Below are positions 34,208 to 49,353 of a stretch of DNA of 64,000 nucleotides, piece after piece. Position numbers and translations under genes: made by a program. This DNA is from an uncultured Paracoccaceae bacterium (GTDB lineage: Bacteria > Pseudomonadota > Alphaproteobacteria > Rhodobacterales > Rhodobacteraceae). The notes beneath the pieces were generated by a model. It was not told where the DNA came from, searched no databases, and saw only the letters and a list, made by a program, of their open reading frames with translations. The stretch spans positions 1 through 64,000 of the forward strand of contig CANMDF010000003.1 in NCBI GenBank assembly GCA_947496605.1, given 5' to 3'. Position 1 is the first letter of the stretch. Every line of letters starts with the position of its first letter.

Positions 34208-34693
34208 TTACTCGCCGATGCTAAGCCGATCAGTCGTGCCATCTTCTTTACGCACATCAATCGTCGCATCGCCAATCGCCACGATTTGCCAGTCACCCAA
34301 TCGCGCATCTTCCTCCAAACGAAAGATCTGAGGGCTGGTTGATATCCGCAACAATGCAACTTTCTCGCCTTCAGAGCCCAAAATACCAACCAGCGTCAGG
34401 GTTGCTTCCGGTGCAACAGGTGCGACGGGGGCTTCCGGTGCGGCTGGCGGCGTCCGTGTTGAGTGAAAAAGCGGGCGTTCGCCGGTGACTTCGATCAAAT
34501 TGGCAAGCGTCTCTTGAGAGGATTCCAACCTAGCAGTCAGGTCGTTGTTAGGGGTTCGTATCTCTTGTACTTGTGCATCGCCCTTTGGCAACCAGCCCCA
34601 TAACGCCAATCCGCAAAAACCAACCAAGACGGCCGTGCCAATCATAGTCCCGTTCGCCGGTTGCGTCTTTGATTTGGGTTTCTGCTGTGTCAT
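34208..34693 (-). CDS. GspC-like type II secretion inner-membrane protein
   Basis: A 161-aa protein with one transmembrane segment near residues 17-37. A Pro/Ala-rich linker (PPAAPEAPVAPVAPEA) follows, then a GspC/PulC HR-like domain (LTLVGILGSEGEKVALLRI…, GDWQIVAIGDATIDVRKEDG). No PDZ or coiled coil follows, so it is a short version; it could alternatively be called GspN-like. It would link the inner-membrane platform to the secretin. It is the last gene of the leftward operon, overlapping gspM by four bases. Confidence 0.7.
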   Translation of the reverse strand: MTQQKPKSKTQPANGTMIGTAVLVGFCGLALWGWLPKGDAQVQEIRTPNNDLTARLESSQETLANLIEVTGERPLFHSTRTPPAAPEAPVAPVAPEATLTLVGILGSEGEKVALLRISTSPQIFRLEEDARLGDWQIVAIGDATIDVRKEDGTTDRLSIGE

Positions 34694-35226
34694 CTTTCGG
34701 ACAGCCCATAGAGTTGAAGTTGGAATGAAACACGCCGCTCCGGGCTGGACCGTGTCGTTCGCGCCCGCCGCAGCGATATTTGCTCAATAACAACGATAGG
34801 TTCCAATGCCGAGAGACCATGAAGATAGGCCCCCAGTTCGGTCTCAGGCGCAACACCGTTGACGGTAAGATTTAATCGGACAAACCCATCGATTTGTTCG
34901 ATCTGATCCGTGCGAATGACTTCAATCTGAATGTCGTGTGATTCAGCAAGATTTTGTAAATTAGTCTGCAGGATGGCCTGCGCCAACTGTGGCGTGTCTC
35001 CGGTATAGAACGCACTGGCAGCCAATCCGCTACCGGTGTCGGTTCCTTGGGTCATCGCATCTGCACGGGCAATCACGGCGCGCATTTCGGCAAGGTCGGA
35101 ATTGCGCGCTGATGCGCCTGAAATCAGGATAAGCCCGATCAAACCTATCAAAGCCACAAGACCATATCCCGCAAAAAGGATAATCCGGCGTGGCAGTGCC
35201 GGTTGGCGAAAGCGAAAATCACTCAT
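34690..35226 (-). CDS. Type II secretion protein GspM-like
   Basis: A 178-aa protein with one N-terminal transmembrane segment (about 15-37), then a coiled region and a ferredoxin-like domain, matching GspM/PilO-type platform proteins. It is placed directly after the GspL-like gene, overlapping it by four bases, which is the usual L-M order. Sequence conservation is low in this family, so the assignment rests largely on topology and position. Confidence 0.75.
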   Translation of the reverse strand: MSDFRFRQPALPRRIILFAGYGLVALIGLIGLILISGASARNSDLAEMRAVIARADAMTQGTDTGSGLAASAFYTGDTPQLAQAILQTNLQNLAESHDIQIEVIRTDQIEQIDGFVRLNLTVNGVAPETELGAYLHGLSALEPIVVIEQISLRRARTTRSSPERRVSFQLQLYGLSER

Positions 35227-36275
35227 GGTGCCGCACCTGTCAGGGTCGCCGCGATCCGAAACCGCTCAAGCGATTGCGAATTGTCACGTGTCACAGGGGA
35301 TGCAAACCGAATGTCGGTCAGCTCTGGTAAAGTCGTAAGCATTTGGGTGATTTCAGCCGCCGAAGGCGCGAAACCTGCCAAAGTCACGGTATCATCATCA
35401 ATGATCAGCTGATCGAGCCAAACCCCATCTGGCAGCAGCTCACTGAGTTTGCCTGTCATAGCTAGCTTATCTGTCGCCAGTTGCAGTGATTGATCCAGTT
35501 TTTGTATGCCAGCAGCCGATTGTGCCTGTTCAGACAACGCCGCACGCGCATTCGCGGCTTCTTGCGAGACGGCGGAACGCGTCATGCTGTCAGAAATCAT
35601 TAAGGCGATCGCCGACACACAAAAGATCATCGCGCCCACCAAACTTAGCTTAAGCGCGACGGGCAGGTGCTTGGTCAGTGACAACGAGTTTGCTTGGTTG
35701 GCATGCCCTGCCCATTCTGGACGCGCAGCAAACTCGACTTCGGTTGTAGATCGACGGACCATACCAATCGGTATTTCAGCCTGTGCAAGTAAATCCAAAG
35801 CTTCCTGAACACGATTCTTCAAGATAACAGCAGCGCGTGCGCGCCATTTGCCATCCTCCTGCTCTTCACCAATCCAAAACCAGTAGGATGCATCCTCACT
35901 AAATGGGGACCGGAATTGCAGTTCATTTTCAATGATTTGCCGCAATTCTGGCAATGTGGCATCGGGCAAGCGAAACGACAAATCAATACAGCTGTCATCC
36001 ATCACAACCAGATCAACCGGTGCTTGCCCACGCTGGTCAACGAGCTCTGAAATTGTTGCAGCAGACAGTAGCTTTTTCTCGGACGACCGCGGTCGACGCA
36101 ATGTCGGTGCATCGTCCGTGATCGCGACATAAAAATCCGAGACCGGTACTGAATCAGCAGAAGGCACGGCCAATTCGGCCGAGCCTTGCAGTGCTAGGTT
36201 TCGATATTGGTTCCGCTTTCTTGCGAAAGGCACCGCTTTGGTGTCTTTCGCAGGATCGCTATCAGTCTTCGCCAC
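35223..36275 (-). CDS. Type II secretion protein GspL-like (PilN domain)
   Basis: A 350-aa protein. It has a cytoplasmic N-terminal part of the GspL/PilM-actin-like type (up to about residue 205), a single transmembrane segment near 210-230, and a periplasmic PilN-like domain (LPDGVWLDQLIIDDDTVTLAGFAPS). The start is GTG 36275. It recruits the GspE ATPase to the membrane. It lies 52 bases after the DUF1501 gene, in the same operon. Confidence 0.8.
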   Translation of the reverse strand: MAKTDSDPAKDTKAVPFARKRNQYRNLALQGSAELAVPSADSVPVSDFYVAITDDAPTLRRPRSSEKKLLSAATISELVDQRGQAPVDLVVMDDSCIDLSFRLPDATLPELRQIIENELQFRSPFSEDASYWFWIGEEQEDGKWRARAAVILKNRVQEALDLLAQAEIPIGMVRRSTTEVEFAARPEWAGHANQANSLSLTKHLPVALKLSLVGAMIFCVSAIALMISDSMTRSAVSQEAANARAALSEQAQSAAGIQKLDQSLQLATDKLAMTGKLSELLPDGVWLDQLIIDDDTVTLAGFAPSAAEITQMLTTLPELTDIRFASPVTRDNSQSLERFRIAATLTGAAP

Positions 36276-36327: not shown

Positions 36328-37629
36328 CTATGACATGGCAGAAAACAATTCCAAGTCTGAGAACGTGTGGTTCGGGAAGATCGTCGAAATCAGGTTCTGG
36401 TCCATTTGCATATGGCGAACCATGATTTCACCAACAATATCACGATAACTCGTAACCGTTGGCAGCCAGTTACGGTTCACCACCGTATCGTCAATGGTGC
36501 TAACATCTGGTGCCACAGCTTGCTGTGTTGGGCCACCGAAGGCGAACCAAGAGCCACCAAGACCGTGGTCAGTACCGACACTACCGTTTTGCTTTTTGGT
36601 ACGGCCAAATTCACTACCGACCAACACAACAACATTCGCCATCTCGGTGCCCATATCGCGCCAGAACGCGTTGAAGTCTGCCGCACCTTGCGCCATACGC
36701 TCGTTGTAGCGCTTGCTAGTATCTGTGAACGGGTTGCCTTCGGTCGCAATCTGGTTTGAGTGCGTATCCCAGCCGATGTTCCAATCAAGCGCTGCGACCT
36801 CAAGCGGGATACCCGCCTTAAGCAGCTGCGCACATAGCTTTAGACCGCGTCCAAGGTCGCTGTTGCTATAGCTGATCTCATCCGGATCGGTGCTATACAT
36901 GCTTGCCGCACGCGCAACGTCATCAATTGAATCGAGCATAACAAGCTGGTTGTCTTTGACGATCCCTTCCATCGCTGACAAATCGACGTCATGCGACGCA
37001 ATCTCGCGCATCATGTCGGTCAACTGGTTATCAGCACAGCCATCTGCGCAGAAGTCACGGTTGGTGACGTTAAAGTTGTCAGCTTGCGAGATCGCAGGAA
37101 CTTTAATTTCACCGCGAATTTCAGTGCTGATTGAGGACTTACCCGCAACCATGCCACGCAATGGGTGAGCCGGCCCTGTCACATTCTGCATATAACGGTT
37201 CATGTAACCATCGATCAGGTTGTTGCGTGCACCGGTGCCGATCCAGCGCTGACAGTCAAAGTGCGATCTGTTTGCACCCTCAAATGAGGTCGCAGGCGCG
37301 ATCATCATGTTCCCGCTATCCCAAATTGGCATCATCGCCTGCAAGTTGGGGTTCATACCGCGCATGCCGCCAGCCGCTACGCCAAGGTCAATTGTGCGAC
37401 CTCCTTCCATGCCCATTGGGGGTGGAACAGCGATATCTGGGCGATAAGTGTAGTAAAAATCATCACCATAGAGCGGGAACAAGTGCAGACCGTCTGCACC
37501 TCCGCGCATGAATACTTTGATGAAAGTCTTACCGGCCTCTTGGGCGAATGAAAACTTAGGGGCGCCTGCAACACCAGCCATAGCTGCTGCCGAGGTTAGG
37601 GATTTAAGAAAGTCTCTGCGGGTTGCCAT
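36328..37629 (-). CDS. Tat-exported DUF1501-domain protein
   Basis: A 433-aa protein with a twin-arginine signal peptide (TRRDFLK, 3-9, hydrophobic stretch, cleavage near FAQEA). The DUF1501 segment begins at FMRGGADGLHLFPLYGDD and includes VVVLVGSEFGRTKKQN and DHGLGGSWFAFGG. DUF1501 resembles the alkaline phosphatase/sulfatase fold, but the activity is unproven. The 32-base gap from the DUF1800 gene and its place before gspL argue that the pair belongs to the secretion operon. Confidence 0.9.
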   Translation of the reverse strand: MATRRDFLKSLTSAAAMAGVAGAPKFSFAQEAGKTFIKVFMRGGADGLHLFPLYGDDFYYTYRPDIAVPPPMGMEGGRTIDLGVAAGGMRGMNPNLQAMMPIWDSGNMMIAPATSFEGANRSHFDCQRWIGTGARNNLIDGYMNRYMQNVTGPAHPLRGMVAGKSSISTEIRGEIKVPAISQADNFNVTNRDFCADGCADNQLTDMMREIASHDVDLSAMEGIVKDNQLVMLDSIDDVARAASMYSTDPDEISYSNSDLGRGLKLCAQLLKAGIPLEVAALDWNIGWDTHSNQIATEGNPFTDTSKRYNERMAQGAADFNAFWRDMGTEMANVVVLVGSEFGRTKKQNGSVGTDHGLGGSWFAFGGPTQQAVAPDVSTIDDTVVNRNWLPTVTSYRDIVGEIMVRHMQMDQNLISTIFPNHTFSDLELFSAMS

Positions 37630-37661
37630 TAGACACTACTCCGTATTGTCACTTAAAAGTG

Positions 37662-40343
37662 TTATTGCAAAAGGAAGCTAGGGGTGACGGCGATGAGGCC
37701 CATCGCGCGTTCTAGCGCTCTGGTTTCATCTACGCCTTCCGTCCGCGGTTCAAAAATACCATCGGTATCTTTCAGAACTGCAACCAGCTGTTCGTATTCG
37801 GTCAAAGTAAACCTGTCAGCGGTGCTAACGGCCAACAAATAGGCGGCAACTTCTTCTGCCGTCTCCAGACCCGCTTCTTGGATGTCGGCCAAAAGGTCGA
37901 TGCCATAGTTCTGGCGGCTCTCAGCGATGCCGTTCATTCTCTCATACATTGAGACAAGCGTCGCTGAGTTCGTCCAAGCTGAGCCAACTTCTGCAAGTCC
38001 GGTTGGGTTAGGATACTCCAGGATCTGGTAGCCAGCACCTTCAAACATCTCACGGAACCTCCGGTAGAAATCATCTGTCCGGTCAGCTGGGGGTGTGGCG
38101 CCAAAGGCGCGGATTGCAGACACTGCATATTCGAAAGGTGTCTTGGACTTAGAGCGCTGGAAGGCAACGTTCTGTGCAAAGCTTGGATCAAGCAAGATGG
38201 CACGCAACATTGGCACAACTTCGCCACCTGACTGCTCCCATGCTGCCGCGCAAGCTGCTGTCAAAGCAGGCTGAGGTTCGTCCGACACAAGAAGCTGAAC
38301 CAACTTGCCACATACGAAATTGCGTGTGCTTGAGTGCTGGGCAAGGATAGCAATCAATTCTTCGCCTTCCTGCACACCGGCAGCGCCGTCACGGCCCGGG
38401 ATTGTGATGCCAAGGAATGGGATATCCTTGTCGTCCGAATCATGGCGATCAGCACGGAATTCAAATGCGTACTCGCGTGCCACATCTTGTGCATTGGGGT
38501 TTGTTTGTGTGTAACCCCAACCCGTAAAGATGCGTGATACCGCGATAACATCTTCTGGACCGTAACCTGCATCCACACCAACAGTTGAAAGCTCCATAAT
38601 CTCGCGACCATAGTTTTCGTTGATGTTACCTGCGCGGTTCTGGTCGTTGTCCAGATACTGCGACATCAAAGGGCTGCGTGCACTGTAGAGCAACATATCT
38701 TCAAAGTTGCCGAACGCATTTGCACGGAAGAACGCACGGTCAGTGATGTTCTGCTGAACAATATCGGTGTCTTTCGTGATCGCGTGGAAGTGGTTGGCCC
38801 AAAAATTCGCCATAACCTCTTGGAACTGACGCTCACTAAACGCGGCATGCGCGATATCATGCGCCATCAACGACCGGAGCAAAGTGCCCGTATTGTTCGT
38901 TGTTGGGTTCAGCAAAGAAGCAGGGTTTGTGGCCATAAACGCACTATCATCGATAGCGGCAGGGTTAAGCTGCTCTTCTACGAATGCGGGAAAGCCAATA
39001 GCACGGATCCGCGCATAAAGCTCAGGTGTCGGACCATAAGTCATACGGCTCAGTGCCTGAGAAATCCCGTTGTCGACGCCCATGCCACGCACAGTGTACG
39101 TGACAGGAGTACCCTGAACTTCATCATTGCCCTCTAGCGCGCCAGTCAATGTGACTGTGACTTCCGACCCTTGTGCAAAGTCTTCTTCAAAGAGACGAAC
39201 AGCAAACTGACCAGTCTCTGCACCAATATCGACCTTCGTTGTCCGGTTTGTTGGTGCAATTGCAACATTCACGACGTTGAAGAGAGAGTTATCCATCGCC
39301 GCGCCGAACAATGTAGCGCCCGTATTGGCAACCATACCCTCTTCGTTACCTGCAGAGGTCAGCTGAATAGCTTGTGTCAGCGGCACGTTGGCGGGCGGCG
39401 TCAGTGGCGACACTTGCGTCAGGCCCATAGGAGCCGGAGCAGGTGCAGGCGCGGGAGTAGGCGCAGGTGCCGGCGCAGGAGGAGTAACCGAAATCGGTGT
39501 GGGCGCAGGTGTAGCACCCGGTGAAACAACAGGCGCAGAACCGCCACCGCTTCCACCACCGCTAAAGCCGCCACCACCAGCGCTTACTGGTGTACCAGCA
39601 ATACCTGATGTTCCGGCACTTGTGGTGCCAACACTGCTCACTCCGCCAGCTGTCACAGCGCTTGTACGCGTCCCAGCAGCCGAGCCACCTTGCATCTGTG
39701 AACCAGGTAGCATTGCAGCGATTGGATTTGCCGCCGCAGCCATCTGCGCAGCCTGTGGGTTCTCAGCAACACTTCTCGCAAAGCTTGCGTTATTCGATGA
39801 ACCACCACCGATTGAGAAGGGCACAATGCCGTTTGATGTGGCCAAACCGGCTGTCGTTGTTGCACCCGAGATGGCTGGATTGAGGACCGCGCGAGACGCC
39901 ACAATCTGTGCCGCTTCATTTGGGTCGACGTCAGTGGTCAGCGCGTAGAAAGGGAGAGGATCTTCACCGGCCGCGTTGATTGTGATCTGTGCGACGCTTA
40001 TGTTTTCTTCGCTCACGCCCGTGATTTTCACCACGTGATCACCAGCGGCGAGGGTCACGAGCGCAGTAATCATTTGACCGACATCGTCAGAGCGTGTGCC
40101 AGTGGCATCAAGGAACAACTGCCCATCAATGCTGATCTTGATGCCCGTGTTCGCTGGCGCCCGAAGCGTAAACAGCCCGCCTGCTGGCAAGTTCCATTTT
40201 CGCAACAGCTGTTCTTGGACGGCTGCGACTTCAGTCACACCCTCCATCGCTGTGGCCGTTGTTGTTTGTGCAACCGCGAAGGGTGCTGTTCCGACAGTCA
40301 GTGCTGCGACGACTGTACAAATAGGTTTGCTAAAATACCGCAC
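37662..40343 (-). CDS. Exported DUF1800-domain protein with Pro/Ala-rich linker
   Basis: An 893-aa protein. It has a Sec-type signal peptide (to about residue 25, AVAQTTT), then an N-terminal region with low-complexity Gly/Ser and Pro/Ala-rich stretches (roughly 240-320). The large DUF1800 domain has conserved FWANHFH, ENYGREIMELSTVG and FTGWGY motifs. The start is GTG 40343 preceded by GGGGGA. DUF1800 and DUF1501 proteins are usually adjacent and are thought to be exported. Here they share an operon with gspL/M/C, so they are candidate substrates or partners of the secretion system. Confidence 0.9.
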   Translation of the reverse strand: MRYFSKPICTVVAALTVGTAPFAVAQTTTATAMEGVTEVAAVQEQLLRKWNLPAGGLFTLRAPANTGIKISIDGQLFLDATGTRSDDVGQMITALVTLAAGDHVVKITGVSEENISVAQITINAAGEDPLPFYALTTDVDPNEAAQIVASRAVLNPAISGATTTAGLATSNGIVPFSIGGGSSNNASFARSVAENPQAAQMAAAANPIAAMLPGSQMQGGSAAGTRTSAVTAGGVSSVGTTSAGTSGIAGTPVSAGGGGFSGGGSGGGSAPVVSPGATPAPTPISVTPPAPAPAPTPAPAPAPAPMGLTQVSPLTPPANVPLTQAIQLTSAGNEEGMVANTGATLFGAAMDNSLFNVVNVAIAPTNRTTKVDIGAETGQFAVRLFEEDFAQGSEVTVTLTGALEGNDEVQGTPVTYTVRGMGVDNGISQALSRMTYGPTPELYARIRAIGFPAFVEEQLNPAAIDDSAFMATNPASLLNPTTNNTGTLLRSLMAHDIAHAAFSERQFQEVMANFWANHFHAITKDTDIVQQNITDRAFFRANAFGNFEDMLLYSARSPLMSQYLDNDQNRAGNINENYGREIMELSTVGVDAGYGPEDVIAVSRIFTGWGYTQTNPNAQDVAREYAFEFRADRHDSDDKDIPFLGITIPGRDGAAGVQEGEELIAILAQHSSTRNFVCGKLVQLLVSDEPQPALTAACAAAWEQSGGEVVPMLRAILLDPSFAQNVAFQRSKSKTPFEYAVSAIRAFGATPPADRTDDFYRRFREMFEGAGYQILEYPNPTGLAEVGSAWTNSATLVSMYERMNGIAESRQNYGIDLLADIQEAGLETAEEVAAYLLAVSTADRFTLTEYEQLVAVLKDTDGIFEPRTEGVDETRALERAMGLIAVTPSFLLQ

Positions 40344-40606: not shown

Positions 40607-42316
40607 ATGGCTAGAGTTGTTACCGTACATTTAGACGACATCGAGATTCCCGCGCGTTTCCTAGAAGACGGTACGCTGGGTTCGACTGACGTCATTCGTG
40701 CACGTCATATCAGCACCACGACGGGGCAGCCCATTCGTGTTGTTCTGGATAGGCTTGGCATCGTCTCTCAGTCGTTGTGGGCACAGACAGTCGCAGAAGA
40801 TAACGAACTTCCGCTCTTGTCCTTGGACGATTTCCCGCCGCGGTTGCCTCATGATGAACGTCTATCGTCCGACTATATGAAGCAGAACAGCGTCGCGTTG
40901 CTTTCGGTGGATGATTCCGGACAACCGCGTATTGCCATAGCAAATCCGATGGCACGTCAGGTCCGTCAGGCGCTGAAAATGATCTTCGGCACACAGATGC
41001 AGCTGGCTGTTGCCACAGACCGAGATATTGAATCCGCCCTCGCCCGTAGCGAAGCGCTGGCTGAGGAAGCTGCAAACGACAACGTCGATACCCAGGCGCT
41101 TTTGGAAGAACTTGCCGACGGCGATCTTGATACTGACCGTCTGATGGAACTGGCGAACAACGCCCCAACCGTCAAATATCTTGATGGCTTGTTTGCTAAC
41201 GCCGTTGAAAGCGGCGCGACAGACATTCATATCGAAGTCCTTGAAAAAGGACCGCGGGTTAGATTGCGGGTCGATGGCATCTTGGTCGAAACGGTGCCCG
41301 TCGAACGGCATCTCTATGATGGTGTCGTTTCACGTCTTAAGATCCTCGCTGGCATGGACATTAGTGAACGCCGCCTTCCTCAAGATGGGCGCATCCGCCA
41401 AAAGACCTCTGGCCGCTCTGTTGATATTCGTGTGGCGAGCATTCCAACCGTGCATGGCGAAACACTTGTGCTGCGCTTGCTTGATAACAGTGAAAACCTC
41501 GCGTCGCTTGATCGTCTGACAATTCCCGAACTGTCACTCGAGCGGTTGAAGACAGCCCTGCATCAACCCAATGGCTTGATCTTGGTCACGGGTCCAACGG
41601 GTAGCGGTAAGACAACGACGCTGCATGCGGCGTTGGCCGAGATCAACGAAGCGGGACGTAAGATCATCACGATTGAGAACCCTGTTGAAATTCAAACACC
41701 CGGTCTGATCCAGATTGATGTGAACCCTGAGTTGGGTTGGACATTCGCGAGCGCTCTGCGTTCGGTCCTGCGCCATGACCCTGATGTTCTTATGGTCGGC
41801 GAGATTCGTGATGCCGAGACGGCCGAATTGGCCGTACGCGCTGCACTAACAGGTCACCTTGTTCTATCGACGCTCCATACCAATCGCGCCTCCGAGGCGG
41901 TTTTCCGGCTTCGCGACATGGGTGTGCCAGAATACTTGCTGAATTCAGTTCTGCGTCTTGTCGGCGCACAACGCCTGATCCGTACTTTGTGCTCTCATTG
42001 TGCGGTACCAATCGAACTGCATAAAAACCCCAGCTATCAGTCTTTGGCACAAAGCTTTGTTGAGGCCGATCCAACCTTGGGCGACCCACAAAGCTGGACA
42101 CCGCACACAGCTGTTGGATGTCCGCATTGCAATAACTCTGGCTATTCAGGTCGCATGGCGCTGTTTGAAATGATGACGCAGAAAGAGGCACTGGGCGGCA
42201 AGCAAGACCAAGGGCACCGGTCAATGGGAATCGAAGGCGTCGGCCTGTTTACCAAAGGACGCACAACATTGAACGAACTCGTCCGTGTGTTCGGCGCTGG
42301 CGAATTCTGGACCTAA
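40607..42316 (+). CDS. gspE: Type II secretion ATPase GspE
   Basis: A 569-aa ATPase with an N1/MshEN-type N-terminal domain, Walker A GPTGSGKT (329-336), the Asp box, MVGEIRDAETAE (Walker B) and LTGHLVLSTLHTN (His box). A four-cysteine zinc motif (CSHC…CPHC) is near 470-510. It drives pseudopilus assembly from the cytoplasm. ATG 40607 gives the usual N-terminus, although no strong ribosome site precedes it. The gspF gene begins four bases after its stop. Confidence 0.93.
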   Translation: MARVVTVHLDDIEIPARFLEDGTLGSTDVIRARHISTTTGQPIRVVLDRLGIVSQSLWAQTVAEDNELPLLSLDDFPPRLPHDERLSSDYMKQNSVALLSVDDSGQPRIAIANPMARQVRQALKMIFGTQMQLAVATDRDIESALARSEALAEEAANDNVDTQALLEELADGDLDTDRLMELANNAPTVKYLDGLFANAVESGATDIHIEVLEKGPRVRLRVDGILVETVPVERHLYDGVVSRLKILAGMDISERRLPQDGRIRQKTSGRSVDIRVASIPTVHGETLVLRLLDNSENLASLDRLTIPELSLERLKTALHQPNGLILVTGPTGSGKTTTLHAALAEINEAGRKIITIENPVEIQTPGLIQIDVNPELGWTFASALRSVLRHDPDVLMVGEIRDAETAELAVRAALTGHLVLSTLHTNRASEAVFRLRDMGVPEYLLNSVLRLVGAQRLIRTLCSHCAVPIELHKNPSYQSLAQSFVEADPTLGDPQSWTPHTAVGCPHCNNSGYSGRMALFEMMTQKEALGGKQDQGHRSMGIEGVGLFTKGRTTLNELVRVFGAGEFWT

Positions 42317-42320
42317 CGCA

Positions 42321-43556
42321 ATGAACCAAACCGTCCTGCGCAATGAGACACAATTTGACTACACCGCGCGCGATGCCAGCGGTGAGCGTAAAAAAGGCCG
42401 CATTGCTGCAAGGGATATTCCACACGCAAAACAAAAGCTCCAACTTGATGGGCTTTATCCTATCGATATTCTTGCGGCCGACGCACAGCCGGTCGCTGCA
42501 GCCAAAAAGACATTCACACCGGGCAAGCTAAGCCAACGACAACGTGCTGATATGATCGCGCGGTTGGCAAAATTGACCAGCAGCCAGATCAACCTTGAAC
42601 GCGCTCTTTCGATCATGGCCGAAGGCAATGACGGCGCGGTCCCCGCTGCCGCCTCTGCGTTGCGCGTCCACATCCGCGAGGGTGGTGGCTTGGTTGACGG
42701 ACTGCGCACGCATCTTGGGGTGCAAGACGCTGCAACCCTCGCCTTAGTGCGCGGCGCTGAAATCTCTGGCGATCTATCTGAGGCGCTCACGACCGCATCT
42801 GAGATTTTGCAACAACGCCTTATGTTGGTCCGTCGGATCGGCGTCGGCATGCTCTATCCCAGTCTCTTGCTCATTGTCGCCTTATTGTCGGTCGGATTGA
42901 TTATGATCGCAGTGATCCCACAATTCCGTCCCTTGGTCGAAGACCGAATGGACATGATCCCTTTGCTAGGGCGCATGATCTTTGGCATTTCGGCGGCACT
43001 TTCTACAATCTGGCCTCTGATCTCGTTTGGGCTGATCGCGACAGTCGCAGGGCTTTGGTTTTTGCACCGCCAAGGCAAAGCATTACCATTGGTCAGCCGC
43101 ATTGCCGCACGCATGCCTGTCATTAGTGGTGTGATCTGGCGCAACCAAGTGATGATCGTGCTGCATAGTCTGGGTGCGCTATTGCGCCGCGAAGTCACAC
43201 TCAGCGAAGCTTTGCGCGTTATCAACCAAACGACACCGGGTGGGCGGATCAAAACCGCCTTGGAACAGGTCTCGGTCAGCGTCGAAAGCGGGCAGTCTTT
43301 ATCAACTGCGGTCGCAAACACTGATATGATGTCATCCAGCGCGGTCGAAATGGTTCGTATCGGCGAAGAAACCGGCGACTTATCTGGCATGATCACCCGA
43401 GCCGCCGAAGAAATGCGCGATACCGCCGATCGCGAACTTGAACGTTTTCTTGCACTTTTCCAGCCTGCGTTGATAATCTTCGTGGGCCTCATCGTAGGGG
43501 TCAGCCTTTATGCGCTTTTTTCAGCTATTGTCTCGGTCAACGCGATCGCGTTCTAG
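42321..43556 (+). CDS. gspF: Type II secretion platform protein GspF
   Basis: A 411-aa inner-membrane platform protein with the repeated GspF domain (two copies, around 75-195 and 275-400) and three transmembrane segments, including VGMLYPSLLLIVALLSVGLIMI and LFQPALIIFVGLIVGVSLYALFSAI. It sits between GspE and the pseudopilins. The ATG at 42321 follows the gspE stop directly. The downstream gspG start lies inside its end. Confidence 0.93.
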   Translation: MNQTVLRNETQFDYTARDASGERKKGRIAARDIPHAKQKLQLDGLYPIDILAADAQPVAAAKKTFTPGKLSQRQRADMIARLAKLTSSQINLERALSIMAEGNDGAVPAAASALRVHIREGGGLVDGLRTHLGVQDAATLALVRGAEISGDLSEALTTASEILQQRLMLVRRIGVGMLYPSLLLIVALLSVGLIMIAVIPQFRPLVEDRMDMIPLLGRMIFGISAALSTIWPLISFGLIATVAGLWFLHRQGKALPLVSRIAARMPVISGVIWRNQVMIVLHSLGALLRREVTLSEALRVINQTTPGGRIKTALEQVSVSVESGQSLSTAVANTDMMSSSAVEMVRIGEETGDLSGMITRAAEEMRDTADRELERFLALFQPALIIFVGLIVGVSLYALFSAIVSVNAIAF

Positions 43557-43962
43557 ACGCAGTACTGCCACACAGGGTTTTTCCCTGATCGAAATGCTTG
43601 TGGCCGTGGCCATCATCGGACTAATCGTCGGATTGGTCGGTCCTGCCGCGATGCGTCAGTTGCAATCTTCACGTGTGAATACGACCGAAGCACAAATCGG
43701 CCAGATCCGAACGGCCATCGACATCTTTGCGATTGATACAGGGCGTGTCCCCGGCCAGGCCGAAGGGCTAGCCGCATTGGTCCAGAACACGGCCGCAGTG
43801 CCAGGTTGGAATGGCCCTTACTTGCGTGATGGATCATTGCCCATGGATGCTTGGGGACGGGCATTCATCTATCGCTTTGAAGGTGATCAGGTGCAGGTCA
43901 TCTCGCTTGGGGCCGATGGGCAACCGGGTGGAACGGGCAACAATGCTGATATCAGCGGGTAG
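43510..43962 (+). CDS. gspG: Major pseudopilin GspG
   Basis: A 150-aa type IV pilin-like protein with a basic leader, cleavage at TQG-FSLIEMLV (E5 present) and the GspG C-terminal region (AWGRAFIYRFEGDQVQVISLGADGQPGG). It forms the pseudopilus that pushes substrates out. ATG 43510 overlaps the gspF end by 47 bases; TTG 43528 would be a shorter alternative. Its leader is cleaved by the prepilin peptidase encoded downstream. Confidence 0.92.
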   Translation: MRFFQLLSRSTRSRSRRSTATQGFSLIEMLVAVAIIGLIVGLVGPAAMRQLQSSRVNTTEAQIGQIRTAIDIFAIDTGRVPGQAEGLAALVQNTAAVPGWNGPYLRDGSLPMDAWGRAFIYRFEGDQVQVISLGADGQPGGTGNNADISG

Positions 43963-44362
43963 ACGCCGGGCATCCCATGGTTTCGCAACCATCGAGGTTC
44001 TGGTCGCCGTCATCGTCATCTTGATGGTGGGCAGTATCGCCGTGTTGTCATTTGGCGGGACCGATCGCCGCGCAGTTGCCCTCGAAGCGTCAGAAACGGC
44101 GGTCTTTTTGCAAGAAACGCGACTACGTGCACTGGAACTTGGGCGGCCGATTGAGATCGTGGTGACTGCGCAGGATGGCTTTATTGATGCAGGCGGACGG
44201 CAGCATTACTTTGCACGCGGCATGACCGTAAGCCCACAGCAAGCAGCATTGATCCTACAACCCACAGGTCAGTCGAATGGCCTACGGCTAGAGTTCTCAA
44301 AGGGAAGCCACACTGCGGCGCTGACGCTTGATTGGCTAACAGGGCGGGTCGATATTCGATGA
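43943..44362 (+). CDS. gspH: Minor pseudopilin GspH
   Basis: A 139-aa pseudopilin, with a short leader and cleavage at SHG-FATIEVLVAVIV (E5 present), then a beta-rich domain. It starts 20 bases inside the gspG end. It is a minor tip component of the pseudopilus. The longer frame upstream only reads the other strand of gspG and is ignored. Confidence 0.85.
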   Translation: MLISAGRRRASHGFATIEVLVAVIVILMVGSIAVLSFGGTDRRAVALEASETAVFLQETRLRALELGRPIEIVVTAQDGFIDAGGRQHYFARGMTVSPQQAALILQPTGQSNGLRLEFSKGSHTAALTLDWLTGRVDIR

Positions 44363-44760
44363 AACGGGTCCGGTCCATATCTCGTGGCTTTACACTGATT
44401 GAGGCAATGGTCGCCCTTGCGATCGCGGCCGTTGTGATCAGCGGATTTTATAGCGCGCTTTCAACCGGCAGCCTGCTTGATCGCCGCGCGGCCCAGCAAG
44501 CCGCCAAGGTATTTCTGGCGACAACGGTTCTTGACCGCGTTGGCGTCGATATACCCATGCGGCTTGGGACAGTTGAAACAGGTATTGTGCGAGACATGGA
44601 ATGGCAGTTGATCATCAGTGGCAGCCCAGCGGCCGACATGGCATTGGGTCAGGTCTATCCAAATGAACTTGTGTTCGTCTCCGTCTCTGTCAGCGACCCG
44701 CAGGGTACATCTTCCCCTGTTGTACTGCGCACAATCCGCTACGCGCAGAGCCCGCTATGA
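44359..44760 (+). CDS. gspI: Minor pseudopilin GspI
   Basis: A 133-aa pseudopilin with leader MKRVRSISRG and FTLIEAMVALAIAA after the cleavage glycine (E5 present). It overlaps the gspH stop as ATGA. GspI normally forms the tip complex with GspJ and GspK, whose genes follow in order. Confidence 0.88.
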   Translation: MKRVRSISRGFTLIEAMVALAIAAVVISGFYSALSTGSLLDRRAAQQAAKVFLATTVLDRVGVDIPMRLGTVETGIVRDMEWQLIISGSPAADMALGQVYPNELVFVSVSVSDPQGTSSPVVLRTIRYAQSPL

Positions 44761-45419
44761 TCAGGCGGCGTAGCAGAGCATCCGGTTTTGTCCTGGCCGA
44801 AGCCTTGGTTGCTCTCGCGATTGCCGCGATGACTGTGGCGCTTTTGACCAGTGCAACATGGGGCTTGCAGCTCACGGCTGAGCGGCGGGCAGCGTCTGCC
44901 GAAACGGCGGCGGTAGATTGGCTTGCCGCACGGCGCGCGTTGATTGATTGGACGTCCGGGGCAAGCGCCGAGGGCATTGGTGATACACAACGCTACCTGA
45001 TAGGTACTGCGACCACGGCCCGCATTTTTGTTGAACCCAGCGGCACAGGCCAAGTTGCGCCATTTGTGGGGGAATTGCGGGTTGAGGCATTGGGCGAAGA
45101 TGGATTTGCTTTGATCGCTGCACGCTATATCGGCCAACGGGACGCACGATTGACTAGCGATGCCGCGCAACAGACCGAAATCTTACGGACCACACAGCCG
45201 ATCCGCTTACTTTACCTTATCCCAAGCCAAACAGGCGCAGCCAATGCCAGTTGGCGGTATGAGACCGGCTCAGGCGACGAAGGCCTGCCAGAGGCGGTCG
45301 CGATCGAGGTGGGCACCGAACGTATGATCACAGCACGCGTTTTTGCAACGATCAGCGCGTCGTGTTTAGCGCGGATTGGACGCAGCAGCCTACAAGATGA
45401 TCAGTGTGACTTGCGATGA
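44757..45419 (+). CDS. gspJ: Minor pseudopilin GspJ
   Basis: A 220-aa pseudopilin with leader MIRRRSRASG and FVLAEALVALAIAAM after cleavage (acidic residue at position 5), followed by a large beta-rich domain. It overlaps gspI and gspK by four bases each, an unbroken translational chain. Confidence 0.88.
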   Translation: MIRRRSRASGFVLAEALVALAIAAMTVALLTSATWGLQLTAERRAASAETAAVDWLAARRALIDWTSGASAEGIGDTQRYLIGTATTARIFVEPSGTGQVAPFVGELRVEALGEDGFALIAARYIGQRDARLTSDAAQQTEILRTTQPIRLLYLIPSQTGAANASWRYETGSGDEGLPEAVAIEVGTERMITARVFATISASCLARIGRSSLQDDQCDLR

Positions 45420-46249
45420 TCAAGCGTAGATCCCCCAATACACGTGGCTTTATTCTGATCACGGTTCTCTGGATCGGACTGGGACTGTTGCTTGCTGTTT
45501 CAGCTTTCCTCGCCACAACACGGCAAGAAGCTTTAACAATCCGTGCCGAAGTGAACGCCGCAAGAGCTGCAGAATTGGCGCGAAGCGGACTAAACCTCGC
45601 CTTGGCCGACTTGGGGCGCATCAACGCGGAACAGCAACGCTCGCCTCAGGACGGGACCCCTGTGGCCGTGCAAATGGCAGAAGGCACAGTCACTTATCGT
45701 ATTTTTGATGAAGCCGGAAAGATCGACATTCTGAGGGCCCCATCGCGGATGGTTGCCCCTGCGTTAGTCCAAATTGGCGAGGCCGAGGGCCTTGATAGTT
45801 TTGATGCGGTGAACATCGCTGACGCGCTTGAGAATTTGGTTGAGACCCAAGATGGCACGGTGCGCTCTGTTTATAGTGCACTCACCTCGGCTGGGCTTAG
45901 CGGGCAAACCGCATTGGCCGCATCGCGTTATCTCACGACCCTCAATATGACGTCGCGTGTGAATCCTTTGACAGCACCACGCGCAGTGCTGGCCGCTGTG
46001 CCGGGTCTGGGACCAAGCGACGTCGAAGAAATCATAGCGCGCCGCGAAACCGGCCGGCCGATGCCAATTTTTGGCAGTGCCGCAGTCTGGCTGGTTGAAC
46101 AACCCGGCCCTGCTTTCACAATAGAAGCAGAAGCCGTTTTGACGACTGGCGGGCGGTCGTTGCTGCGTGCTCAAGTCGCACAGCAAGGGTTGTCGTTCCG
46201 AGGTGGATTGATGCGATACGATATCTTGTCATTGGATGTCGTGCGTTAA
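45416..46249 (+). CDS. gspK: Minor pseudopilin GspK
   Basis: A 277-aa protein with leader KRRSPNTRG and FILITVLWIGLGLL after cleavage. The residue at position 5 is threonine rather than glutamate, the usual GspK exception. The alpha-helical domain contains the NPLTAPRAVLAAVPGLG helix-hairpin-like stretch. GspK caps the pseudopilus tip. It ends five bases before the peptidase start. Confidence 0.9.
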   Translation: MIKRRSPNTRGFILITVLWIGLGLLLAVSAFLATTRQEALTIRAEVNAARAAELARSGLNLALADLGRINAEQQRSPQDGTPVAVQMAEGTVTYRIFDEAGKIDILRAPSRMVAPALVQIGEAEGLDSFDAVNIADALENLVETQDGTVRSVYSALTSAGLSGQTALAASRYLTTLNMTSRVNPLTAPRAVLAAVPGLGPSDVEEIIARRETGRPMPIFGSAAVWLVEQPGPAFTIEAEAVLTTGGRSLLRAQVAQQGLSFRGGLMRYDILSLDVVR

Positions 46250-46253
46250 CGTC

Positions 46254-46898
46254 ATGACGCCAGACACCATTCTTATCCTCGCTTCACTTGCCGCAATCGG
46301 TTGCGCCGTGACACTCGGACCGCTCGTGTTGTTGGTCAGGGCCGTTCTGCGCACTACCGTTGCTCCTGCAACGATCCGCAAATGGCAAAAACCCGTCGGA
46401 TGGGGCTTAGGCGGCGGGTTTTGCATCTCCACTGCGACCGTCGGTATCCTAATAAATGGGAGTGCCGCGATGCTTGCCGCAACGCTTGGCATCCTGCTGC
46501 TGCTCGCCATTCTCGACCTTGCTTGGCGTTGGCTGCCATATGAATGGACACTACCACTTTTGGCGCTCGGCGGCGTCTCAGCTTGGGCAAATGACCGGAT
46601 CACTGATGCCTTTTTGGGGCTTTTGATCGGCGGAGGAACGCTCATGGTGCTCCAAATCACCTTCCGGGTTTTGCGCGGAATTGAGGCGTTGGGGACCGGT
46701 GATATTTGGCTCGCAGCAGGTCTTGGGTTATTGGCGGGAATGCCTCAAATTCCTTGGATTTTATGCCTTTCAGCGGTCAGCGCATTGGCATTTTCAGGAC
46801 TCTCAAAACTGACGTCAAAACCCGACCAGCGCCAAAGACTTGGCGTTGCATATGGAACACACTTAATTCTGGCATATCTAGTTTTCTTGATTTTCTAG
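46254..46898 (+). CDS. Prepilin peptidase (A24 family), short form
   Basis: A 214-aa polytopic membrane protease. The catalytic aspartates lie in ILDLAWRWLPYEWT and GTGDIWLAAGLGLL (the GxGD motif). It lacks the N-terminal cysteine-rich methyltransferase domain of full GspO/PilD enzymes, so it may cleave but not N-methylate pseudopilins. ATG 46254 lies four bases after the gspK stop. It should process GspG-K of this locus. Confidence 0.88.
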   Translation: MTPDTILILASLAAIGCAVTLGPLVLLVRAVLRTTVAPATIRKWQKPVGWGLGGGFCISTATVGILINGSAAMLAATLGILLLLAILDLAWRWLPYEWTLPLLALGGVSAWANDRITDAFLGLLIGGGTLMVLQITFRVLRGIEALGTGDIWLAAGLGLLAGMPQIPWILCLSAVSALAFSGLSKLTSKPDQRQRLGVAYGTHLILAYLVFLIF

Positions 46899-46983: not shown

Positions 46984-49353
46984 ATGAAAAATCTTTTGCT
47001 TTGCGCGGCGTCAGTCGCGTTGCTCTCAGGCTGTGACGACTTGGTCGCGAGAGATACGAATACACTTGCAGATTGGCGCGCCGCCACAATCTTGGGCGGT
47101 GGCGATGGACAGGCTTCCCAGCGCTCTGAGGGACGCATCACAGGCGGACAGGCGGTGCAAGCAGGTAACGGCACGATCTACCCGGGCCGCACCCCACTTT
47201 TCCGCGACAGCGATTTTGTTAACAGCACCGGCGAACGCACCGTTTCGCTCAACCTAGTGGATGTGACAATCGCCGAAGCCGCCGCTGCGGTCTTGGGTGA
47301 ATTGCTTCGCGAAAACTACGTCTTGGACCCAGCCGTTCAGGGCACCGTGAACATCCGCTCTAGCCAGCCGATTAGCCGCACAACCGCAATTGAAGTGTTC
47401 GAATTGGCGCTGAAGCAGAACAATGCAGCACTTGTGCGCCGCGGCGATACATTTGCAATCGTGCCGCTGTCCGGCGAGCTCAGCATCGGGGCATCCGTCG
47501 GTCGCGACGTGCCAATTGGTTATTCACTCCGTGTGATCCCGCTACGCCACATCGGTGCACAGGAAATGGCGACTATTCTGCAGCCATTCGCAGGCGGCAA
47601 CATTGTCGGTGTTGATGCGCAACGTAACATCATCGTTCTCGCAGGTACCTCTGCAGATCAGCGTGCTTGGCAAGAAACCGTCAGCAGCTTTGATGTTGAT
47701 TGGCTTGCGAACCGTTCAGTCGGCGTCTTCCCGATCCGTGGACGTTCAGCACAATCCATCGTGAATGGCCTCGACCTTGTCGTTGAAACAGACGCCAACT
47801 TTGAGCCGATTGTCGTGTTTGAAGTGATCCCTGAGAACAACTCGATCCTTGCAGTCGCAAAAACGCCCAGCGCGTTGGAAAATGTGTCTACATGGATCCG
47901 TCGCCTGACCCAAGAAGGTCTGAACGACGCGCAAGTTTATTCATACGACATGAAATACGCCCGTGCGTCTGATATTTCGCCAACATTGTCCCAGATCCTT
48001 GGGGTACAGGTCGAAACAGCGACATCTGGCGATGAAGAAGTTCTCAACGCAAGCTTCAGCGGCAGTGCAAGCGCTGACGTTAATGCGACACGTATCGTGG
48101 CAAGTGAGGCGACAAATACGCTTCTGATCCACGCCACAAACGACGAATATCAGCGTGTTCTTGGCATGTTGCACCGTCTTGACGTCCCACCACGCCAGGT
48201 TCTGGTCGAAGCCACAATCGTTGAAGTGTCTTTGAACGATGAGCTGCGCTACGGTGTGCAGTACTTCTTTGAAAACGGCGGCGATACATTTGGCCTGACG
48301 CAATCTGCAACAGGCACAGGCATTTCTGCGAACGTGCCGGGTGTCAGCGCGATCTTCGGTGGCGCAACGCCAGAGGTGATTGTGGATGCCTTAGAAGATG
48401 TGACTTCGGTCAATGTTGTATCATCACCTAACTTGATGATCCTCAACAACGAATCCGCGCGATTGGTTGTCGGTGATCAGGTGCCGATTTCGATCCAGAC
48501 GTCACAAGACGCAACTGACAACTCAGACGTCTTCGTCTCAACTGTTGAGTTCCGTGACACAGGTGTGATCTTTGAAGTGACACCACGGATCAACTCTTCT
48601 GGTTCTGTTGTTCTGAATATCCAGCAAGAGGTCAGCACCGTTGGTGAAACTGACGGTTCCACTGGTAACCCGATCATTTCGCAGCGTACGATCTCTAGCT
48701 CTGTCGCGGTTGGCAGTGGTGAGACAATCGCCTTGGGTGGTTTGTTTGAAAGCCGGAGCACACGTGGTACCGCCGGTCTACCTGGTCTGGCACGTCAGCC
48801 AATCCTCGGTGGTCTCTTTGGACGCCAGTCGCGGACAGACAATCAGACCGAACTTTTGGTCCTGATCACGCCACGTATCGTCAACAGCGCGGTCGACGCC
48901 CGCCGGATTACACGCAGCTTGCGTGACCGGATGGAAAACATCCGCCTTGATGATGCAACGCTCAGCAACTCGATCAACGTGCCACAAATGCGCACAGACA
49001 ACTCGGATGCGATCTCAGCACGCAGCGCGGTTTCATCCCGCAATGCGACAACGCAAGCTGATGTTCAGTCTGCAGTGCAAACAGCGGTCTTCACACAAGC
49101 CATCCCAGCGGCGGCAACCACAGGCGGGTCCCACTTTACCTACCTCGGCGCCTTTGGCACAGAAGAGGCAGCACGTGCACATTGGGCAAGCTTGGTTGAA
49201 ACAAACGGTACGGCCCTATCCGGCCTAACCCCACGCTTCCCGCAAAATGGGGCACTGGTCAGCGTAGCTGTAGGTCCAACAAGCGGCACACAAGCGTCTC
49301 AGATTTGTGCAGCCATCCGGTCGGACTGCTACAGCACAAAGTCTGAAAATTAA
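46984..49353 (+). CDS. gspD: Secretin GspD with lipobox and C-terminal SPOR-like domain
   Basis: A 789-aa outer-membrane secretin. Its signal is a lipoprotein type with lipobox LSGC (C17), followed by D18. N0 (near 80-160) and repeated N1-type domains precede the secretin domain (VSSPNLMILNNESARLVVGDQVPIS…, VELLVLITPRIV). From about residue 714 the sequence has a SPOR-like domain (HFTYLGAFGTEEAARAHW, then VSVAVGPTSGTQASQICAAI), unusual for a secretin. A GAGG ribosome site precedes ATG 46984. The gene ends the rightward operon before a hairpin terminator. Confidence 0.92.
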   Translation: MKNLLLCAASVALLSGCDDLVARDTNTLADWRAATILGGGDGQASQRSEGRITGGQAVQAGNGTIYPGRTPLFRDSDFVNSTGERTVSLNLVDVTIAEAAAAVLGELLRENYVLDPAVQGTVNIRSSQPISRTTAIEVFELALKQNNAALVRRGDTFAIVPLSGELSIGASVGRDVPIGYSLRVIPLRHIGAQEMATILQPFAGGNIVGVDAQRNIIVLAGTSADQRAWQETVSSFDVDWLANRSVGVFPIRGRSAQSIVNGLDLVVETDANFEPIVVFEVIPENNSILAVAKTPSALENVSTWIRRLTQEGLNDAQVYSYDMKYARASDISPTLSQILGVQVETATSGDEEVLNASFSGSASADVNATRIVASEATNTLLIHATNDEYQRVLGMLHRLDVPPRQVLVEATIVEVSLNDELRYGVQYFFENGGDTFGLTQSATGTGISANVPGVSAIFGGATPEVIVDALEDVTSVNVVSSPNLMILNNESARLVVGDQVPISIQTSQDATDNSDVFVSTVEFRDTGVIFEVTPRINSSGSVVLNIQQEVSTVGETDGSTGNPIISQRTISSSVAVGSGETIALGGLFESRSTRGTAGLPGLARQPILGGLFGRQSRTDNQTELLVLITPRIVNSAVDARRITRSLRDRMENIRLDDATLSNSINVPQMRTDNSDAISARSAVSSRNATTQADVQSAVQTAVFTQAIPAAATTGGSHFTYLGAFGTEEAARAHWASLVETNGTALSGLTPRFPQNGALVSVAVGPTSGTQASQICAAIRSDCYSTKSEN

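Follow-up and report, generated by a model that had tools for sequence, protein, structure and literature searches.

How does a T2SS secretin cross the cell wall, and stay in it, when it is accompanied by neither a pilotin nor GspAB? A possible case is an ORF located at positions 46984-49353 (+) of the window, that is, the whole 64,000-nucleotide stretch of DNA analysed. The ORF starts with an ATG, the first ATG, GTG or TTG downstream of the in-frame stop, and encodes 789 residues. It is the T2SS secretin GspD, as it scores 409.7 bits with TIGR02517, above the curated cut-off of 351.35, and belongs to a T2SS gene cluster. Pfam reports Secretin, Secretin_N (two stretches) and GspD N0 domains. 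The protein begins with a signal peptide carrying the lipobox LSGC (MKNLLLCAASVALLSGC-DD, 46984-47034), in which Cys17 is encoded at 47032-47034 and followed by Asp18 at 47035-47037. The N0 domain (PF21305, residues 89-154, 47248-47445) and the secretin domain (PF00263, residues 469-633, 48388-48882) come next. Downstream, AlphaFold and dN/dS analyses delineate an S-domain-like stretch with a variable linker (residues 641-712, 48904-49119), predicted as two short helices with the rest at low confidence. Lastly, a C-terminal domain assigned to the SPOR fold by Pfam, AlphaFold and structural alignment covers residues 712-789 (49117-49350).

The gspD gene is the last of the run gspE-F-G-H-I-J-K-O-D, all on the forward strand. 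The gspE gene (40607-42316) is scored about alike by the gspE and pilB models, both below cut-off, while gspF (42285-43556, start uncertain) and gspG (43510-43962) are assigned by family models. Several pseudopilin identities are given by position and weak matches: the gspH-like (43970-44362, start uncertain) and gspI-like (44332-44760) genes by weak family matches and synteny, and the gspJ-like gene (44757-45419), which returns no clear family match, by position only. The gspK gene (45416-46249) is identified by a family match below cut-off and by synteny, and the ensuing gspO-like gene (46236-46898) encodes an A24 prepilin peptidase according to Pfam. On the opposite strand, past a DUF1501/DUF1800 pair, are found a gspL-like gene with a PilN domain (35223-36275) and gspM (T2SSM_b, 34690-35226), both reported by Pfam, and a gspC-like gene (34208-34693; T2SSC 14.8 bits, cut-off 27). 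The order gspE-F-G-H-I-J-K-O-D is conserved in 18 of 19 related loci, one of which has gspE truncated by the contig end; in the remaining locus the contig begins within gspJ. The DUF1501 and DUF1800 genes (36328-40343, reverse strand) are divergent from gspE and adjoin it. The start of the DUF1501 protein is Tat-like (TAT_signal 16.6 bits, below the cut-off of 22.7), and DUF1501 occurs at the equivalent place in 14/19 related loci, gspL-M-C standing there instead in locus L064; this T2SS may secrete the two proteins as its dedicated cargo. The other neighbours scanned encode a hydantoinase, TRAP transporter parts, a D-glutamate cyclase, a LysR regulator, a cyclase with AAA domains and a berberine-bridge-type oxidase. 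The AAA_22 match of this last cyclase (27.8 bits, cut-off 27) is overlapped by a stronger AAA_16 match and was not taken for GspA. In agreement with the initial annotation, neither GspS, GspA nor GspB was found among the genes scanned, from ~29.7 to 57.9 kb of the window.

A search for the same fusion in relatives identified 22 distinct SPOR-tailed GspD proteins. Within the genus, 14 of 56 genomes encode one, including the present genome. In the family sample, a secretin match was obtained in 34 of 198 genomes, and in three of them, the present genome among these, it extended to the query's end. In the order sample (390 genomes, 14 candidates scored per genome), at least ten genomes gave a strong match with the tail profile (E 4.5e-29 or better), always in a frame of 794 to 830 residues; the remaining matches listed are far weaker (3.2e-5 or worse) and fall in frames not exceeding 523 residues. 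A scan of named genomes reported one partial gammaproteobacterial secretin and 19 full-length relatives, among them those of Yoonia maricola, Litoreibacter roseus, Jannaschia aquimarina and Loktanella sp. Alg231-35; since 13 of these 19 are identical to proteins already found, the total comes to 22. Two of the genomes (G231 and G234, loci L049 and L050) encode, besides the SPOR-tailed GspD, a second T2SS-type secretin devoid of the tail.

The initial annotation had reported the lipobox LSGC with its cysteine at position 17, and this feature is robust, the cysteine being kept in 22/22 distinct SPOR-tailed orthologues. It had also proposed that Asp18 would mean inner-membrane retention under E. 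coli rules, where an Asp at +2, when the next residue is acidic, is described as a strong Lol avoidance signal (PMC6469965). Asp18 is indeed present, but it is not a conserved sorting signal, because the +2 residue varies among the 22 orthologues (E in nine, D in five, G in three, A and S in two each, N in one) and is Ala in the two closest (84 and 82% identity to GspD). The same source describes the D+2 signal as rarer outside enterobacteria. In 16 SPOR-tailed genomes, the +2 residue of Pal is T in 14, G in one and S in one, and BamD displays Cys-Asp in only one. The other SPOR lipoprotein of the genome, RlpA-like by eye and encoded at L002:1486-2487 (-), has Asp-Glu after its lipid cysteine; the gene beside it resembles, again by eye, that of a D-Ala-D-Ala carboxypeptidase.

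Genes for GspS or GspB were also looked for elsewhere in the genomes. The PulS/OutS (PF09691) and AspS (PF16549) models are above cut-off in none of the 16 SPOR-tailed genomes, as compared with one of 14 control genomes for each, and pilotins of other types would escape these models. The T2SSB model (PF16537) returns no hit at cut-off in the 16 genomes, a weak negative as it returns none in the 14 controls either. One SPOR-tailed genome (G171) has an AspS-type match below cut-off (18.8 bits against 25, E 0.005). With an invariant lipobox cysteine and neither of the two known T2SS pilotin families above cut-off, GspD displays the sequence features expected of a liposecretin of the HxcQ type. 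Many tail-less GspD frames of Alphaproteobacteria also show lipobox-like motifs close to their start, according to a simple pattern in 14/19 class-sample loci (L173-L191) and by eye in L008 and L012-L016; judging from these motifs, liposecretins may be common in Alphaproteobacteria.

A SPOR-like C-terminus had been proposed at about residues 714-789, together with a structural comparison as the check. Pfam SPOR (PF05036, cut-off 21) scores 19.9 bits with the whole GspD, 23.3 bits in the genome search and 24.4 bits with the tail alone; it matches 19/19 diverse tails with an E limit of 10 (best E 9.4e-9), and when 12 SPOR-tailed genomes are searched for SPOR with a limit of E 0.01, the secretin tail is listed in nine. 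A sequence profile of 16 tails did not return any PDB chain. The SPOR proteins of the same genome behave similarly, the FtsN-like one (named by eye) giving chance matches only against the PDB and the RlpA-like one reporting CwlC at E 0.13. Sequence searches of the PDB being insufficient, a fold comparison was needed to place the tail. The AlphaFold model of the tail (19-sequence input, pLDDT 87.9) returned no Foldseek match below E 1e-3, while VIA-align 2 reports as top hit the SPOR domain of Pseudomonas aeruginosa RlpA (6i05, Z 8.6, rmsd 1.9, 67 residues), the RlpA glycan complex ranking second, the CwlC SPOR fourth, and the FtsN SPOR (1uta) reaching Z 5.9. A longer C-terminal model again places the RlpA SPOR first (Z 8.9), although it is poor beyond the SPOR domain (mean pLDDT 61.3). 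The SPOR assignment is thus borne out, and the predicted structure identifies the GspD tail as a SPOR domain by fold. Its two cysteines, Cys775 and Cys782, are invariant in 22/22 tails and common to 12 of the 23 control SPORs counted by script (see below).

The fold does not settle what the tail binds. The denuded glycan is described as being held in RlpA by Gln270 together with arginines 302, 309 and 311, while Ala273 and Phe274 provide backbone contacts, Gln270 and the arginine patch being the few critical side chains (PMC6895207). Tail residue 5 is aligned to RlpA 266, which places Tyr720 of GspD at Gln270 if we assume that there is no gap between them. Ser760 occupies the place of Arg309, this strand-3 equivalence deriving from a sequence alignment with ordinary SPORs in which RlpA Arg302 falls outside the mapping. 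The strand-1 Gln is found in 0/22 tails (V in 12, Y in eight, M and H in one each) and the strand-3 Arg likewise in 0/22. By contrast, the control SPORs, namely all 29 non-secretin matches out of 38 in the 12 SPOR-tailed genomes, possess the Gln in 28 cases and the Arg in 23; these were counted by script for 23 and by eye for six (five weak matches and one other), and their collection with the Pfam SPOR profile possibly biases them to canonical residues. The five weak control matches keep the Gln and miss the Arg. SPOR matches of this kind, with Gln kept and Arg missing, occur in 5 of the 12 genomes (L195-L199), in open frames of 621-817 residues where a weak SPOR lies behind a signal-peptide-like stretch. 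One non-secretin SPOR match (L165, G001) is devoid of both residues. The Val-Gly-Pro motif is kept in 22/22 tails, and the Gly-[Ala/Ser]-Phe edge, the last two positions of which make the backbone contacts to glycan in RlpA, is largely kept (Gly 21/22, Ala/Ser 21/22, Phe 22/22). Because both the Gln and the Arg are absent from all 22 tails, the domain is filed as a SPOR fold and not as a canonical denuded-glycan binder. The initial annotation, which implied that the tail binds denuded peptidoglycan, is therefore upheld for the fold and weakened for the ligand; judging from these residues, it is doubtful that the tail binds denuded wall in the known way.

The domain is nevertheless maintained. 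The NG86 dN/dS medians, calculated over those pairs that could be used in every region (48 of 231), are 0.26 for the N-terminus, 0.12 for N0-N3, 0.16 for the secretin core, 0.46 for the S-domain and linker, the highest of the five regions compared, and 0.32 for the tail. The tail is under purifying selection, tighter than the linker and looser than the secretin core.

A second lineage carries a SPOR tail of another kind. In the class sample (two candidates scored per genome), a GspD match was obtained in at least 44 of 385 genomes; 19 loci besides the present one were compared, 27 other matches listed being left out. One of these 19, L184, belongs to another family and encodes an 888-residue frame with the lipobox LTSC and a C-terminal SPOR (43.8 bits). 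Such a protein is found in two of 24 genomes of its order, that of L184 included, both from one genus. Both tails keep the strand-1 Gln and the strand-3 Arg, with a Leu at the Phe274 place, and the neighbourhood differs, gspD preceding the prepilin peptidase, gspE and gspF genes. A tree built from 56 secretin cores by a quick method with SH-aLRT support (root not inferred) gathers the 22 Rhodobacterales SPOR-tailed proteins in one group (SH-aLRT 99) and the two L184-type proteins in a separate one (100), with tail-less proteins between them. The SPOR profile matches 24/24 tree rows labelled tailed and 0/32 labelled tail-less, and tblastn reported no SPOR remnant better than E 0.1 behind L007, which is the closest of the tail-less secretins in the tree. 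The branches starred in the tree force two changes of tail state, which we read as two gains of the SPOR tail, in a tree where long branches meet and gain is indistinguishable from loss.

Taken together, the explanation that we favour, at somewhat less than an even chance, is that the SPOR tail holds or places the secretin at the cell wall via a changed contact. The lipid would drive the delivery of GspD monomers to the outer membrane, which is attractive since assembled GspD-alpha multimers are reported to fail to pass normal peptidoglycan (PMC10329019). In each subunit, the SPOR-fold domain, following the barrel and a flexible linker, would hang in the periplasm just below the outer membrane, and by analogy with the general GspD topology the secretin ring would display one SPOR copy per subunit. 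The tail would then contact the wall in a changed mode rather than by canonical denuded-glycan recognition, because the glycan-recognising Gln and Arg are gone throughout the clade. The invariant Cys17, the absence of any known pilotin or T2SSB at cut-off in 16/16 genomes, the SPOR matches of 19/19 tails, the Z of 8.6, the largely preserved backbone-contact edge and the tail dN/dS of 0.32 argue for this explanation, and the glycan residues kept in the SPOR of the second lineage suggest that wall contact is the purpose of such fusions. The loss of both residues, the sub-cut-off AspS match of G171 and the weak T2SSB negative speak against it, and the C-D-D sequence at the lipid site would, by the rules of E. 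coli, favour retention in the inner membrane. The earlier proposal that the fusion could replace pilotin and wall-anchoring proteins thus draws support from the conserved lipobox, the fold and the pilotin and T2SSB searches, and loses ground in its reliance on canonical denuded-wall binding.

The same missing residues could indicate that the tail no longer binds wall and now serves as a protein-binding module, recognising another envelope protein or a neighbouring subunit, for example in a stapling role such as that of the S-domain with the pilotin. Such a module would account for a strand-1 position occupied by V, Y, M or H in tails whose fold, Cys pair and core are conserved, but it has no known partner, the backbone-contact motif is largely kept, and the canonical residues of the second lineage suggest that tails of this sort usually serve to bind the wall; we regard it as possible but rather improbable. 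Anchoring of the secretin by an ordinary SPOR bound to denuded peptidoglycan is unlikely: the fold comparison ranks the RlpA SPOR first and the tail alone exceeds the Pfam cut-off, yet the side chains described as critical (PMC6895207) are those that the tails lack and the other SPOR matches of the 12 genomes mostly possess (Gln 0/22 vs 28/29, Arg 0/22 vs 23/29). Least probable by far is that the lipid keeps GspD in the inner membrane through Asp18, with assembly by another route; the E. coli avoidance rule (PMC6469965) speaks for it, against the Asp present in just 5/22 orthologues, the Ala of the two closest and the single Cys-Asp among 16 BamD proteins. A broader and more speculative scenario, which we consider rather unlikely as a whole, is that alphaproteobacterial liposecretins acquired a C-terminal SPOR on more than one occasion, the glycan residues being kept in one lineage and lost in all proteins sampled of the Rhodobacterales lineage, which retained the fold under selection as an assembly or docking module built into the secretin. 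If true, a wall-recognition domain would have been turned into such a module. Since natural SPOR tails with and without the glycan-binding residues exist, the part of wall binding in secretin assembly is testable by exchanging a single domain.

The fusion of a SPOR domain with a secretin is already known. Among the T2SS secretins known, Legionella LspD is described as the sole one to carry a SPOR domain, located at the N-terminus (PMC9239104), and as being devoid of lipoprotein features (PMC6617341). As with the present GspD, the SPOR domain of LspD is a predicted one, and neither a PulS/AspS-type pilotin nor GspA and GspB are reported to have been found in Legionella (PMC6617341, PMC9239104). 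In contrast to LspD, whose SPOR precedes N0, GspD combines a C-terminal SPOR with a lipobox. The open-licence PMC literature, as far as its text was available, did not return any description of a C-terminal SPOR on a secretin or of the loss of its glycan residues, and we did not find their combination with a lipobox in print. Assembly of a secretin independently of a pilotin is treated for ExeD, with ExeAB (PMC6532946). Papers citing the work on Pseudomonas HxcQ describe it as a self-piloted liposecretin (PMC2996285, PMC6617341); GspD likewise possesses its own lipid anchor, as predicted from its sequence, together with a SPOR tail that goes unmentioned for HxcQ in the available text of these papers. 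Among SPOR proteins, the GspD tail resembles RlpA and FtsN by its fold (Z 8.6 to 6i05 and 5.9 to 1uta) and the FtsN-like SPOR of its own genome by its Cys pair, and it differs from RlpA in missing the equivalents of Gln270 and Arg309 in 22/22 tails. Lastly, a wall-binding domain is also built into the secretin PilQ, but there it consists of N-terminal AMIN domains and serves the type IV pilus (PMC5285504), whereas the SPOR-tailed clade would unite a lipid anchor and a C-terminal wall-type domain in one polypeptide.
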